A stretch of 64,000 bases of DNA from Candidatus Polarisedimenticolia bacterium (GTDB lineage Bacteria > Acidobacteriota > Polarisedimenticolia > Gp22-AA2), in assembly GCA_036001465.1 (NCBI GenBank), contig DASYUH010000094.1, forward strand, positions 1 to 64,000, given 5' to 3'. How positions within the stretch are numbered: the stretch's first letter is position 1; each line of letters opens with the position of its first letter. The translations under genes and the position numbers were made by a program. Under the pieces are notes generated by a model. That model was not told the origin of the DNA and ran no database searches. It saw only the letters and a program-made list of their open reading frames with translations. Below are positions 24,161 through 29,909 of the stretch, in pieces.

Positions 24161-26356
24161 TCAGGTTCCCGACGGTCTCCTGATCGGGAACGGCAGGACG
24201 TTCGGATTCATTTCGAGACGGGCGTTCTTCCGCGCCGCCTTGTTCTGGTACATGTTGTGGTCGGCGCGGACCAGGAGATCCTCGAACCCCTCGCCGTCCT
24301 GCGGGAAGAGCGCGATGCCGATCGACAGGCCGGAGCGCGCCACGTTCCCTTCCTCCAGGCGGAGCCTGAACAGGTCCACCGCCTGCTGCAGCCGCTCGGC
24401 CAGCAGGGCGGCCTGGGCGAACCCGGTCATGGGAAGCAGGGCGGCGAACTCGTCCCCCGACAGGCGGACCAGGATGTCGCGCTCGCGCAGGTGGCTTTTC
24501 AGCACGCGACTGATCTCGGAGAGGTACCGATCTCCGACGTGGTGCCCGAAACGGTCGTTGATCACCTTGAAGTTGTCGAGGTCGGCCTCGAGGAACGCCA
24601 TCGGCTGGCCCGCCTGCTGAGAGCGGACTTTCTCCTGCTCGAACACCTGCCGCAGGTAGCGTGAATTCGGCAGGTTGGTCAGGCCGTCGGTGAGGGCGGA
24701 CTCCTGGGTCTCGGCGAACAGGGTGCCGTTGCGCACCGCGGCCGCGGCCAGGCGGACGATGATGTCCATCATGCGGATGTGATCGTCCAGGCACGTCACC
24801 CCTTTGGGGAAGTAGAGCGTGATCACGCCCAGGACCTGCCCGTCGTGGATCAGGGGGAAGGCCGCGGCGGTCGAGTATTCCGAGAGATCGAGGCCGGCCC
24901 CGGCGAGGTCGAGATCGACGCTTTGCGAGAAGCGGTTGCTCTTCTGCAGCGCCGCCCAGCCGGTGATCCCCTCACCCACCCTGAGCGCCCGCCCGCGCAG
25001 GTTCTCGACGTTCGCCCCCGAGACGAAGCGCGCCGACAGGCTGTCGCTGTGATCCTCCAGGAGGTAGATCACGCACGATCGGAACGGCACCAGCTGGCCG
25101 ATCTTGCCGGCGACGAGGTCCAGCACCTCCGGCAGGCGGAGCGACGAGCCGAGCGACTGGGCGATCTCATACAGCGAATAGACCTCGCGGTGCGCCGAGG
25201 AGATCGTGCTCAGGACGGCGGTCTGCCGCCCGACGATCGCCCCGCTCTCGTCCCGCTCCAGCCAGATGTTCGATTGGGCCACACCTTGCTGCAGGGCATC
25301 GAGCGGACCGGGAATGCCCGGCGATGACGGCCCTTCCCGGTCGCCGCCCGGACCGGCTGGCACGGCGCCGGCAGGACCGGCGTAGACGTCGTCGATTCTC
25401 TCGGCGCCGATCCCGCGGTGCAGGCTTTCCCCGAACCCCCCGGGGTCGCTCTGCGAGCCGGCCGGCACGCCGCTCCACAGCCCCAGGATGTCGGCGGCCT
25501 CGAGCGGTCCGGACGCGGCGTCGCCCGGGACGGCCGGGCCGGTGGCCCCCTGGGACGCGCGGTACGGCGACACGATGAGCCGTCCCAGGTTCCGCCGGAG
25601 CGTCGTCACCACCGCCGGGTCGAATTGCATCCCCGACCAGGCCTCGATCAGGGCGCAGGCCTCCTCCGGCGATTTGCGCCCGCGGTAGGCGCGATCGGAG
25701 GTCAGCGCCTCGAAGGCGTCGGCCACCGCCAGAACGCGGGCGGCCAGGGGAATCGCCTCCCCCTTCAGCCCGTCCGGGTATCCGGAGCCGTCCCAGCGCT
25801 CGTGGTGGTGCCGGACCGCGGGGACGACCGGGTAGGGAAAGTTGACGTGCGCCAGGATGTCGGCGGCCACCGCGGGGTGCGCCTTGACCTTCTGGAACTC
25901 CATGTCGGTGAGCTTCCCCGGCTTGTGCAGCAGGTGGTCCGGGATCGCCAGCTTGCCGATGTCGTGCAAAAGGGCCGCGGCGCGGACGGCCTCGAACTCC
26001 AGGCGCGGGACCTTCATGAGGCGCGCCAGCTCCATCGCGTAGGCCTGCACGCGGCGGGTGCGTCCCTGCGCATGCGGGTCCTTAGCGTCGATGGCCATGG
26101 CCAGGGCCTCGATGGTCGACAGGTGGACCTGCATCAGATCGTCCAGCCGCCTGAGCGTCGCGGAGGCGTTGCGCTTGTAGGCGCGGTAGACCAGGACCGC
26201 GAGCGCCACGATGGGCGGAATGACGGTGCACGACACGATCCCGATCGAGCCGATCAGGAGCAGGGACACGGCGGCCGCCGTGGTCCCCAGAAGGGCGGCT
26301 CCCGCCGCCGCGACCGCCATCAGGTAGAGACGTCCTCCCGGTCCGCTGGTTCTCAT
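24161..26356 (-). CDS. c-di-GMP metabolising protein: HD-GYP, GAF and GGDEF domains
   Basis: A 731-residue protein. Two membrane helices lie at about 10-60 (LLGTTAAAVSLLLIGSIG, CTVIPPIVALAVLVYRAY). An HD-GYP domain spans about 70-250 with HDIGKLAIPDH near 130 and HHERWDGSGYPDGL near 185, the residues of a c-di-GMP phosphodiesterase. A Gly/Pro-rich linker leads to a GAF domain at about 385-520. A C-terminal GGDEF domain has FLEADLDNFKVINDRFGHH and the active-site variant SGDEF near 632, still compatible with diguanylate cyclase activity. Opposing activities in one protein imply one is gated, perhaps by GAF. The ATG at 26356 follows AAGGAGAG. A structured leader of about 320 nt precedes it. Confidence 0.92.
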   Translation of the reverse strand: MRTSGPGGRLYLMAVAAAGAALLGTTAAAVSLLLIGSIGIVSCTVIPPIVALAVLVYRAYKRNASATLRRLDDLMQVHLSTIEALAMAIDAKDPHAQGRTRRVQAYAMELARLMKVPRLEFEAVRAAALLHDIGKLAIPDHLLHKPGKLTDMEFQKVKAHPAVAADILAHVNFPYPVVPAVRHHHERWDGSGYPDGLKGEAIPLAARVLAVADAFEALTSDRAYRGRKSPEEACALIEAWSGMQFDPAVVTTLRRNLGRLIVSPYRASQGATGPAVPGDAASGPLEAADILGLWSGVPAGSQSDPGGFGESLHRGIGAERIDDVYAGPAGAVPAGPGGDREGPSSPGIPGPLDALQQGVAQSNIWLERDESGAIVGRQTAVLSTISSAHREVYSLYEIAQSLGSSLRLPEVLDLVAGKIGQLVPFRSCVIYLLEDHSDSLSARFVSGANVENLRGRALRVGEGITGWAALQKSNRFSQSVDLDLAGAGLDLSEYSTAAAFPLIHDGQVLGVITLYFPKGVTCLDDHIRMMDIIVRLAAAAVRNGTLFAETQESALTDGLTNLPNSRYLRQVFEQEKVRSQQAGQPMAFLEADLDNFKVINDRFGHHVGDRYLSEISRVLKSHLRERDILVRLSGDEFAALLPMTGFAQAALLAERLQQAVDLFRLRLEEGNVARSGLSIGIALFPQDGEGFEDLLVRADHNMYQNKAARKNARLEMNPNVLPFPIRRPSGT

Positions 26357-26677
26357 GCTCTCCTTGAGTATGCCGGACAGAGCTCCGGCGTTCCCTGTAA
26401 TCGCAACGCGCGTGCCATCACGTCACGCACCGAATCACGCTTTCGGGCCGGCCGCGCAACTGATTGAAGACGCGCCTCTTGGGGCGCGCTGCTGCGGACG
26501 TTTCGCCAGGGCTGCCGGCCAGCTGACGCCGCCTTGGGCATGTGCCTGCCCGGGAACTGAACACGTTTTTCCGGCGGAACGCCGGCGGCGTCGCAAGTGC
26601 GGCAGGTGCAGTGGTTGACGCTTCGGCCGGCTGTCCAGAACAGGGCATCCAGAGGCCATGTTGTGCAGATTCCGAGC
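26357..26677 (-). other. non-coding leader of the HD-GYP/GGDEF gene
   Basis: There is no credible gene here on either strand. Minus-strand hairpins are visible: GCGCGCC/GGCGCGT (within 26472-26492), GCCGGA/TCCGGC just upstream of the ribosome site (within 26371-26388), and CCGGCG/CGCCGG (within 26571-26585). The conserved core of a GEMM riboswitch was looked for and not found. It may be a long untranslated leader, or it may hold an unrecognised RNA. Confidence 0.35.
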
Positions 26678-26717
26678 AAAGAAAAGGGCCGGTCCCTCTG
26701 TCGCGACGGGACCGGCC
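26678..26717 (-). terminator. intrinsic terminator after the membrane-sensor gene
   Basis: On the minus strand a perfect 10-bp stem, GGCCGGTCCC (26708-26717) with GGGACCGGCC (26687-26696) around an 11-nt loop, is followed by CTTTTCTTT. A second 7-bp hairpin (TCGCAGG/CCTGCGA) stands just upstream near 26720-26740. Together they would end the protease/membrane-protein transcript before the HD-GYP gene. Confidence 0.72.
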
Positions 26718-26759: not shown

Positions 26760-27473
26760 CTACGGGGTCATGCCTCCTTTCGCCCGCACCAGCCGATCGA
26801 GGCAGGCACGGTACGTAAGATAGAGAATTCCGGGGAAGGGCAGAATCGCGAACGCCGAGACCACGCCCAGCTCACGGACGACCAGGAAGACGATCGCCGC
26901 CGCCATCGAGCCGGCGAGGTAGGCGGTGCCGGCCCAGGGGGACGAGTCCTGCCAGATGACCAGGAGGGACGCGTGCTCCTTCAGGGCGACGACACCGGAG
27001 ACCAGGGCGGTGTTGAGCACATACTGCGCGAACGCCATCGCCGCGACCGGCACCAGGAGGTCCTCGGCCGAGAACCGCGAGCCCCAGACGCCGCCCTCGG
27101 GAAGCAGCCGCGTGAACACGCGCGCGGAGAGATTGACCGAGATCGCCATGCCGGCCGTGTTGAAGAGCCTCTTGTGCCAGGAGCCCTTCGTCCGGCTGGA
27201 CGAAGCGAAGCCGTCCAGGGCGGCGGTCAAGGTCGCGTAGTCGCCGCCGAACACCATGACAGAAAGGAAGACAAAGGCATCCGAGAACGACACCCGGCAG
27301 GACGGCAGCGGCAGCTTCACCGACAACCTTCCGACCAGGACGGTCAGGATGGCGATTCCGAGCCACGCCAGGTCCTGGGCGCCGAAGCCGGCCTCGAGGA
27401 TGTTGCGCACGCTGCCCGCCAGAATCGCCGTTCCGACCGCAGCCACTGCACCGATGTACAGGTTGCCCTTCAT
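26760..27473 (-). CDS. stand-alone multi-helix membrane sensor-like protein
   Basis: A 237-residue integral membrane protein with six to seven hydrophobic segments and almost no soluble part. The segment LPLPSCRVSFSDAFVFLSVMVFGGDYATLTAALDGF resembles the N-terminal membrane domain that precedes HD-GYP or GGDEF outputs in acidobacterial proteins, but no output domain follows: it stops 30 residues after the last helix. I place the start at the ATG 27473 because AGGAGAG sits 5 nt upstream; earlier in-frame starts would overlap the protease gene. It is 25 nt after the protease and shares its riboswitch-controlled transcript. It may present a membrane surface to the nearby c-di-GMP enzyme, but that is inference. 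Confidence 0.75.
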   Translation of the reverse strand: MKGNLYIGAVAAVGTAILAGSVRNILEAGFGAQDLAWLGIAILTVLVGRLSVKLPLPSCRVSFSDAFVFLSVMVFGGDYATLTAALDGFASSSRTKGSWHKRLFNTAGMAISVNLSARVFTRLLPEGGVWGSRFSAEDLLVPVAAMAFAQYVLNTALVSGVVALKEHASLLVIWQDSSPWAGTAYLAGSMAAAIVFLVVRELGVVSAFAILPFPGILYLTYRACLDRLVRAKGGMTP

Positions 27474-27498
27474 GTCATCTCTCCTGGGGACCATCGGG

Positions 27499-29472
27499 TT
27501 ACCGGTCACTGGTGAGCCCCCAGATGAGACCGGCGTCCCTGATGCCCCAGATGAGACCGCTGTCGTATCCGCCGTACCCTTTGACACCCCAGATGAGGCT
27601 GGTCGAGCTGATGTCGAAGAAGTCGTTCGAGATCACCCGGTCGCCCCAGATGAGGCCCGAGGCGTACAGCCTCTCGGTCCAGATGAGCCCGCTGGCCGTA
27701 GGGGTGCCCGAGCCCCAGGTGACGTAGTTCCACTGTCCATTCCCGCCGAACACCACGTAGTCGCTGGCGAACAGGCCGTCGTAGTACGTGACGCCCATGC
27801 CCCACGCGTCGAGGCGGCTCGGCGTCCCCCAGATGAGCGACTGGGCATAGGCACCCTGCTGCGTGGTGAACATCGTCTCGCCACGCAGGCCGCCGAAGCC
27901 CCAGATGAGCCCCTGGCTCCAGGCGAAGGTCTCGCCGGCGATGGTCGTCTCAGCGCTCGGGAATCCGGAGACGCTCAGGCTCTGGCCGACAGGGAGCGCG
28001 TACGCATACTTGCTGATCGATCGCGCCAATCGCACCGCGCCGTCGACGTTCAGCATCCCGGCGCCCTGCTCGAAGAGATCCGGACCGTTCATGATCTGGG
28101 CGGAGTACATCAGGATCGCCTTGACCATGTTGGGCGTCAGCCCCGGGTTGGCCTGCAGCATCAGGGCGACGGCGCCCGAGACCACGCCGGTCGACATCGA
28201 CGAGCCGCTCAGGGTCATGTAGCGGGCCTTGTTGCTGGCGCCTCCGGTGTCGACGTGCAGGACCGGATAGGTGCTGACGAGGTAGTTCTGATAGCGCTCC
28301 AGGGACACGAGGCGGCACCCCGGGGCGACCAGGTCGGGCTTCGCGAGAAAGTCGTAGGCGACCGCCCCGGTCAGCGGGTCGACCGAGTGCGACATCGTCG
28401 GGCCGCGCGAGGAGTAGGGCGCGATGGTGTCGTCCGACCGGACATCCGTGCCGAAGGAGTTGGTGGCGCCGACGGTGATCGCCGCGGGGGAGATGCCGGG
28501 GGACGTGATGCCGCCATAGACCTTGTTGCCGATCTGGTCCTTACCGAAGTTGCCGGCCGCCGCGACGACGACCATCCCGGCCTTCGTCGCCCGCGCCACC
28601 GCCTGGCAGAGGGGATCGTTGACGTAGGAGTCGATCGGCGGCGCCGCCAGCGACAGGTTGAGGACCCTGATGTTGTACAGGGTGCGGATCGAGATCGCCT
28701 GATCGATCGCCGCGACCACGCTGCTGACGTATCCCCGGCCCTTCTCATCGAGCACCTTGAAATTGATCAAGTTGGCGCCCGGCGCCATCCCGGCGAAGTC
28801 CCGGCCGGCGAAAAAGTAGGAGCTGCCGTCCCCCCCGATCGCCCCGGCGACGTGCGTCCCGTGGCCGAATGGGTCGTCCAGGCCTCCGCGGCCGGTGAAG
28901 TCCCACGAGAAGACGACGCGCCGCTTCCCCTTCGACTCGTCGCGCAGATCGAAGTGGTCGGCCTCGATCCCGGAGTCGAGGACCGCCACGGTGACTCCCG
29001 TGCCGTCCAGACCCTGGGGCAGCCCATCCACCGAGACGAGAATCTTGAAGGCCAGGTCGGCCCCCGTCGTCTTCTCCAGGTGACTGACGACGCTCGAGAC
29101 CTCCCTGTCCGGAGAGATGTACTCCAACCCCTCGACTTCGGCCAATGCACCGATCGCCTCGAGGGGCATGTCGGCGACCATCTCATCGATGTTCCGGTAA
29201 TGCCTCTGAGGCGTGCCCCCGAGCTCCTGGATGCGCTTGGTGACGTAGGCCACATCGGCCCCCTTCAGGGAGACGATCAGGCGCGTGCTGGAGGTCGGGG
29301 AGCCGTTCTTGATCTGCTCGGCCAGATCGGGGGCGATGCCGGCCTTGCCGCCCCGCGCCGCCTGGGCGGGAGCGAAACCGAATGCGACCAACAGGAGGAC
29401 GGCGAGCGAGAGGGTGACGCCGCGGAAGTGCCCTTTCCTGCCGGCGGACAAGAACAGAGTCTCTCGCTTCAT
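27499..29472 (-). CDS. secreted S8 subtilisin-like protease with C-terminal LIWG repeats
   Basis: A 657-residue protein with a signal peptide (LSLAVLLLVAFGFAPAQA). An inhibitor I9-like prodomain runs to about residue 130. The peptidase S8 domain has Asp in AVLDSGIEADHF (about 166), His in GHGTHVAGAIGGD (about 205), an oxyanion Asn in VVAAAGNFG, and Ser in LSGSSMSTGVVSG (about 424). After about residue 520 the tail holds seven copies of a short motif: GLIWG, SLIWG, GLIWT, GLIWG, SLIWG, GLIWG, GLIWG. The tail ends directly after the last repeat. Similar tails occur in some Acidobacteria subtilases; their role is not known to me. The ATG at 29472 follows AGGAGG, which a riboswitch hairpin can mask. 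Confidence 0.92.
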   Translation of the reverse strand: MKRETLFLSAGRKGHFRGVTLSLAVLLLVAFGFAPAQAARGGKAGIAPDLAEQIKNGSPTSSTRLIVSLKGADVAYVTKRIQELGGTPQRHYRNIDEMVADMPLEAIGALAEVEGLEYISPDREVSSVVSHLEKTTGADLAFKILVSVDGLPQGLDGTGVTVAVLDSGIEADHFDLRDESKGKRRVVFSWDFTGRGGLDDPFGHGTHVAGAIGGDGSSYFFAGRDFAGMAPGANLINFKVLDEKGRGYVSSVVAAIDQAISIRTLYNIRVLNLSLAAPPIDSYVNDPLCQAVARATKAGMVVVAAAGNFGKDQIGNKVYGGITSPGISPAAITVGATNSFGTDVRSDDTIAPYSSRGPTMSHSVDPLTGAVAYDFLAKPDLVAPGCRLVSLERYQNYLVSTYPVLHVDTGGASNKARYMTLSGSSMSTGVVSGAVALMLQANPGLTPNMVKAILMYSAQIMNGPDLFEQGAGMLNVDGAVRLARSISKYAYALPVGQSLSVSGFPSAETTIAGETFAWSQGLIWGFGGLRGETMFTTQQGAYAQSLIWGTPSRLDAWGMGVTYYDGLFASDYVVFGGNGQWNYVTWGSGTPTASGLIWTERLYASGLIWGDRVISNDFFDISSTSLIWGVKGYGGYDSGLIWGIRDAGLIWGLTSDR

Positions 29473-29475
29473 ACG

Positions 29476-29505
29476 ACCTCCTGGTTTTCGACGGGACCAT
29501 GAGGT
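29476..29505 (-). promoter_or_regulatory. ribosome-site sequestering hairpin (riboswitch expression platform)
   Basis: Minus-strand ACCTCATGGT (29496-29505) can pair with ACCAGGAGGT (29476-29485) in 9 of 10 positions around a 10-nt loop, burying the ribosome site AGGAGG. A competing hairpin GACGGG (29510-29515) with CCCGTC (29490-29495) uses the loop of the first and the 3-prime edge of the aptamer, so the two cannot coexist. This is what a translational on/off switch looks like. Confidence 0.65.
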
Positions 29506-29598
29506 GCTTCCCGTCGGCAACCCGGCTGTCTCTGAGAGACCCGCGGCTTTCCGTCCCACCCTCGCGGGTGGTTTGGCCTGCACGACCGTTCGCCCGTA
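29506..29598 (-). promoter_or_regulatory. c-di-GMP-I (GEMM) riboswitch aptamer
   Basis: On the minus strand the conserved GEMM-I blocks occur in order: AGGCCAAACC (29570-29579), the stem CCACCC closed by a GCGA tetraloop with GGGTGG (29556-29571), GGGACGGAAAGCC (29545-29557), a second hairpin with GTCTC/GAGAC, and AGCCGGGTTGCC (29516-29527). The GNRA loop and the GACG(C/G)AAAGCC block are hallmarks of the aptamer that binds cyclic di-GMP. It sits immediately before the protease ribosome site, and the neighbouring operon makes and breaks the same ligand. Confidence 0.85.
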
Positions 29599-29909
29599 CT
29601 AGAGCAACCGATGTGCCATGGGGTGGACGGAGGGAATCGGTCGGGGCCGGGGACGCGATTAAAGATCGCAAATACATGATGTTAGACGGTCGATGACCCG
29701 CCTCATGCGGGGCCGATCCGCCCGGTTGCCTGGGACTCTGCACCCCCGGCCGCCTGAGCAGATTCCAGACACGCCTCGGCCGGAAAGTCGACAGACCGAG
29801 GCATCTTCTACGATGTATATGTATTTGATTCAATAGGTTACGTTGTGTGTCCAGCCCACGTCAGAGATCGGGTCGACATGTCGGGCGCCTGTTCAGTGGA
29901 ACGCGGTTC
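29599..29909. other. intergenic region between divergent riboswitch operon and accD
   Basis: No gene was recognised. It contains a small palindrome GCGAT-5nt-ATCGC (29655-29669), a 7-bp inverted repeat GCCTCGG/CCGAGGC (29773-29802) and an unusually AT-rich stretch near 29808-29840. The promoter of the riboswitch transcript should lie here, but I could not assign convincing -35 and -10 boxes. Confidence 0.4.

Follow-up and report, generated by a model that had tools for sequence, protein, structure and literature searches.

A c-di-GMP-I riboswitch behind a putative sigma-54 promoter precedes a secreted subtilase gene in Acidobacteriota, with translational OFF control favoured

Class I c-di-GMP (GEMM-I) riboswitches are well known, and those of other bacteria act in both directions (PMC6366702). 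The nearest functional parallel to the system considered here is zmpI (PPEP-1) of C. difficile, a secreted protease that is described as being negatively regulated by c-di-GMP via a class I riboswitch and as shedding surface proteins at low c-di-GMP (PMC6366702). Our locus has in common with zmpI a c-di-GMP-I switch on a secreted protease; however, zmpI is a zinc metalloprotease controlled by transcription termination, whereas here the enzyme is an S8 subtilase, the leader lacks a terminator and the promoter appears to be of the sigma-54 type. The Vc1 and Vc2 switches of V. cholerae belong to class I, come from a Gram-negative bacterium and likewise work without transcription termination, but they precede other genes, have another platform, and are described there with no mention of a sigma-54 promoter (PMC6366702). 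Compared with the Rfam families RF01051 and RF03167, the aptamer of our locus has the core, the P1-P3 architecture, by sequence a GNRA loop, and the pocket nucleotides, but differs in a C21:G46 pair, in an A47 despite RF03167 being the best-scoring family, and in its place directly behind a putative sigma-54 promoter. A switch of this class is ordinary by itself, and it is the regulatory layering with sigma-54 that adds interest.

The features of the locus within the window (the whole stretch of DNA that was analysed, 64 kb) are as follows.

29603-29618, minus strand: putative sigma-54 (-24/-12) promoter TGGCACATCGGTTGCT, near-perfect (12/12) and the window's best on both strands
29512-29586, minus strand: c-di-GMP-I (GEMM-I) aptamer (RF03167, 64.6 bits; RF01051, 61.6 bits)
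29583-29586, minus strand: P1 5' strand GUCG, paired with CGAC at 29516-29513 in the covariance-model alignment
29489-29516, minus strand: anti-P1 hairpin (hairpin 1), CGACGGGA at 29516-29509 with UCCCGUCG at 29496-29489, p = 0.006 against shuffles
29476-29505, minus strand: Shine-Dalgarno (SD)-sequestering hairpin (hairpin 2), ACCUCAUGGU at 29505-29496 with ACCAGGAGGU at 29485-29476, 9/10 pairs
29477-29482, minus strand: Shine-Dalgarno AGGAGG, 4 nt upstream of the ATG by sequence
27499-29472, minus strand: secreted S8 subtilase with LIWG repeats, 657 aa, Pfam Peptidase_S8 (PF00082) 7e-49
26760-27494, minus strand: small membrane protein, directly after the protease stop in the gene order
26678-26717, minus strand: predicted intrinsic terminator, GGCCGGTCCC...GGGACCGGCC then CTTTTCTTT, a strong hairpin
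26402-26417, minus strand: second putative sigma-54 promoter TGGCACGCGCGTTGCG (11/12), of the HD-GYP/GAF/GGDEF gene
24161-26356, minus strand: HD-GYP/GAF/GGDEF c-di-GMP enzyme, 731 aa, HD_5 3.4e-45 and GGDEF 7.2e-41

The sequence-only reading had assigned this leader to GEMM-I and had noted a GNRA tetraloop, and both points hold: two Rfam covariance models exceed their gathering cut-offs, and P2 is capped by GCGA, a GNRA tetraloop by sequence. When all 64 kb were scanned with covariance models, the sole RNA family above its cut-off was RF03167 (c-di-GMP-I-GGC), which matches 29586-29512 (-) against a cut-off of 59 bits (E = 5.6e-13, or 4.4e-15 in a scan of 501 bases), and the parent family RF01051 matches 29587-29513 (-) against a gathering cut-off of 35 bits. 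A c-di-GMP-I riboswitch RNA, a known class, is thereby confirmed at the locus. Its 3' end lies 39 nt upstream of the protease ATG, a cis-regulatory position before the open reading frame, and the distance from aptamer end to start codon is 38-48 nt in 8/8 subtilase leaders. The window leader carries GCCAAACC, which a GCAAACC pattern does not match.

The family name raises the possibility that the aptamer binds another cyclic dinucleotide, either 3',3'-cGAMP or the ligand of RF03167-type RNAs, and RF03167 is indeed the top-scoring Rfam family. The two models differ at the position of Vc2 A47, where the consensus letters are GACGCAAAGC in RF01051 and GACGCGAAGC in RF03167; the window aptamer reads GACGGAAAGC, having the A of RF01051 in place of the G of the RF03167 consensus (GACGCGAA), and every relative inspected by alignment or sequence has an A there as well. 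The ligand-contact nucleotides G20, A47 and C92 are all present, at model positions 10, 37 and 75 of the RF03167 alignment, which we take to be the counterparts of these Vc2 positions. The adjacent pair is C21:G46 instead of G21:C46 (Vc2 numbering), a variant that is also widespread in c-di-GMP-I aptamers elsewhere. The name "GGC" presumably denotes G20/G47/C92, and the top score of RF03167 would then reflect the scaffold and not the distinguishing base. G20 is kept as well, which argues against cGAMP, since G20A is the change reported to permit cGAMP binding (PMC7288161). On these pocket bases (A47, G20) we rejected a GGC-type or cGAMP ligand, and binding of another cyclic dinucleotide seems to us very improbable; because A47 is retained where the RF03167 and RF01051 models part, c-di-GMP is the likely ligand. 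Where the distinguishing base is missing, an Rfam variant name should thus not be taken to identify the ligand.

Covariance-model matches place four c-di-GMP-I aptamers in the organism's own genome (G000, 4.58 Mb), and several other settings were seen among related genomes. A second probable surface-protein family, with a PGGF...LLPARG.F.FP.PYNT motif, has c-di-GMP-I aptamers (L001, L009, L010, L011, L025) followed on the 3' side by a strong hairpin over SD and start, and a sigma-54 promoter is present at one member (L206). Tandem c-di-GMP-I aptamers precede one gene in G004:C215 (L033/L010; 957-877 and 493-414, minus strand), the first being weak at 36.6 bits. Others stand before large proteins that have a common N-terminal region, DCVADAGGIVDGFVNYPVPPAQINIDG (L004, L013, L017, L019, L020, L026), and occur across several families of the class, or, in other families of the class, before CxxCH-type haem-binding (cytochrome-like) proteins (L016, L021).

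Upstream of the aptamer, TGGCACATCGGTTGCT has the form TGGCAC-N5-TTGC(A/T) with GG/GC spacing and precedes the transcribed leader; it is the sole top-scoring sigma-54 site of the window, and the only other site that scores at least 11 is at 26417-26402. The -12 element lies 13-17 nt upstream of the aptamer in 8/8 subtilase leaders, so transcription should start a few bases upstream of P1, in the window at about 29592 by the usual sigma-54 spacing. No sigma-70 promoter was found between 26300 and 29900. An rpoN gene is present in the genome, and exact TGGCAC-N5-TTGC has 17 matches in its 4.58 Mb versus 7 for the reversed control, two of the 17 directly preceding riboswitches. The promoter is predicted to be used and would depend on rpoN and an activator protein; an alignment of the accD-protease spacer for an activator site revealed short conserved blocks only and no clear palindrome. 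An identical promoter sequence stands before the aptamer of L040 (QHXZ01000010.1, Acidobacteria bacterium isolate gp22). In other phyla, 11% of C21:G46-type aptamers have a sigma-54 site scoring at least 10 versus 0.6% of random places, so the pairing of sigma-54 site and aptamer is not confined to this clade, and most such aptamers are without it. A literature search that covered few subscription papers turned up no description of a c-di-GMP riboswitch transcribed from a sigma-54 promoter, which is weak evidence of novelty. A promoter identical to that of the riboswitch subtilase also precedes a prepilin-like gene (N-terminal GYSLPELLIVIAIMALF) at L200 (G000:C86:62368-62382).

Riboswitch-free sister subtilases, about 40% identical, are encoded in the same and related genomes, and none of them gave a c-di-GMP aptamer match there. 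A sigma-54-like site scoring at least 10 lies within 350 nt of the start in 12/14 of these sisters, and random 350-nt stretches reach this score in 5% of cases; the sister sites are 31-105 nt before the start versus 146-153 nt in the riboswitch genes. Promoter and riboswitch can therefore be read as separate modules, the sisters sharing the sigma-54 promoter without the aptamer. In an unrooted tree a single branch, supported at 100/100, separates the riboswitch subtilases from the rest; L156, whose leader lies beyond its contig, was grouped with them. This is most simply read as a subtilase family driven by sigma-54, one lineage of which has a riboswitch after the promoter and ahead of the start codon; a gain in this lineage and a loss in the sisters both fit, because the root is not fixed.

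Two mutually exclusive hairpins had been proposed for the platform, one of them pairing nine of ten bases with the ribosome site of the protease. Both exist and have bases in common, so that only one can form at a time, and the pairing of ACCUCAUGGU with ACCAGGAGGU is seen as described. The CGACGGGA arm of hairpin 1 consists of the P1 3' strand plus the bases behind it, and hairpin 2 spans the SD AGGAGG (29482-29477), with p = 0.09 taken alone. We compared eight related subtilase leaders from six genomes (L002, which is that of the window, L003, L014, L015, L027, L028, L030 and L031) with dinucleotide shuffles. A stem capturing the P1 3' strand was found in L002 (p = 0.006), L003 (0.05), L014 (0.0003), L027 (0.010) and L030 (0.001), is weak in L028 (p = 0.25), where it is longer and bulged, and is absent by this test from L015 and L031; the combined Fisher p is about 1e-6 over the eight leaders, which are mutually related. 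The L031 subtilase copy (G004:C315; L031, L165) carries an in-frame TGA and is apparently broken. Compensatory changes occur in the anti-P1 counterparts of five other leaders, the second pair being G-C or A-U, the third A-U, G-U or G-C, the fifth G-C or U-G, and the sixth G-C, G-U or A-U. The P1 5', P1 3' and competing strands co-vary, from GUCG/CGAC/GUCG in L002 to GUUG/CAAC/GUUG in L014 and L027, such that a single P1 position is C/G/C in the former versus U/A/U in the other two; this three-strand change with pairing kept supports mutually exclusive P1 and anti-P1. The ribosome-site pairing is not conserved over the eight leaders in the shuffle test (Fisher p = 0.6), and only in the window leader is an SD-blocking helix both present and predicted to be effective. 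Conservation of the paired bases across homologous leaders, its lack having been named beforehand as a refutation, thus applies to the anti-P1 hairpin but not to the SD pairing.

The direction of the switch had been left open, and predicted SD accessibility leans toward OFF. In platform-only folds with the P1 3' strand either free or held, assessed against shuffled spacers, the SD of the window leader has a predicted unpaired probability of 0.69-0.72 with P1 open versus 0.19-0.27 with P1 formed (p 0.003-0.01 for the change). The mean change over the eight leaders is also above the shuffles (p 0.003-0.01), but the window leader contributes most of this and none of the other seven is individually significant (L014, p 0.07-0.21; L028, p 0.06-0.07), and the predicted change is smaller as more coding sequence enters the fold. 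Full-length folds without constraints did not recover the complete aptamer as the minimum free energy structure. Because the window SD is predicted to be open with P1 free and closed with P1 formed, we favour a translational OFF switch; the translational switch proposed earlier is accordingly plausible for the window leader but does not emerge as a conserved mechanism. In an ON switch, ligand-held P1 would disrupt an inhibitory anti-P1 structure and raise expression, with the SD pairing of the window being incidental. This would suit the lack of conserved anti-SD pairing over the eight leaders, the L015 leader, in which a GCCUC in the P1 3' region can pair with the SD GAGGC and ligand would free the SD, and the two oppositely acting class I switches of V. 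cholerae (PMC6366702). We nonetheless consider it unlikely, as the window SD is predicted closed when P1 forms and open otherwise, and most orthologs show the same direction or are flat.

No terminator-like site was found from the aptamer to the ATG, and we rejected a transcription-terminator platform for this leader. The same lack of an intrinsic terminator weighs against a reading in which the P1/anti-P1 exchange affects how the transcript is elongated or how stable it is, through pausing, Rho or RNase access, instead of ribosome access, as does the short leader, which suits ribosome-site control in all eight cases; in favour of this reading, anti-P1 is the only platform element conserved across leaders, but we judge it distinctly unlikely. 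In the favoured translational OFF model, the sigma-54 promoter would transcribe the leader from a few bases upstream of P1. At low c-di-GMP, the P1 3' strand would be free to pair within anti-P1 and ribosomes could reach their site, so that both the secreted enzyme and the small membrane protein encoded downstream would be produced. At high c-di-GMP, P1 would be locked and the base of the anti-P1 hairpin broken, and in the window leader ACCUCAUGGU would be released to cover the Shine-Dalgarno, lowering translation. Enzyme production would require low c-di-GMP together with an active sigma-54 activator protein, and promoter and switch probably form an arrangement in which two signals must agree before the enzyme is made. 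We hold this model as a whole, a sigma-54-transcribed c-di-GMP-I riboswitch that turns off translation of a subtilase, to be reasonably probable.

The protease itself proved to be the LIWG-repeat extracellular subtilase that had been described, with the Peptidase_S8 match, six [LIV][IV]WG repeats in an ORF from the ATG at 29472-29470 to the stop at 27499, and, read by eye, D/H/S triad motifs and an N-terminal hydrophobic stretch. The small membrane protein has no Pfam or NCBIfam match, and a homolog is the next gene after the protease in L182, L183, L184 and the own-genome copy L185. An equivalent terminator (hairpin and T-run) is found in L182 and L183, and in the window the unit appears to comprise the protease and the small membrane protein and to end at 26717-26678. 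The HD-GYP/GAF/GGDEF gene, the second gene after the riboswitch subtilase, keeps its place in L182, L183, L184 and L186; the gene order from protease to HD-GYP/GGDEF is the same in the first three and, as far as the contig reaches, in L186, and sites matching the second sigma-54 promoter occur in L182 and L183. Operon control of this gene by the riboswitch was considered and rejected: because a terminator and the gene's own sigma-54 promoter lie between, the enzyme is a neighbour outside the riboswitch transcript, probably on a separate transcript that answers to the same sigma factor.

By analogy with zmpI, cells leaving a surface may use the subtilase to trim surface proteins. Secreted proteases under a c-di-GMP riboswitch are known from C. 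difficile, and this system would add subtilases as targets and Acidobacteriota as hosts. A more tentative proposal, possible though in our view doubtful, is that the riboswitch was gained once and surface proteolysis thereby came under a gate with two inputs, sigma-54 activator and low c-di-GMP, accompanied by HD-GYP/GGDEF feed-forward. If this is true, the HD-GYP/GGDEF enzyme, expressed from a separate sigma-54 promoter, would reduce c-di-GMP under the same conditions and thereby complete a feed-forward loop. The sister subtilases offer a natural comparison, with and without the aptamer, for the contribution of the RNA layer.
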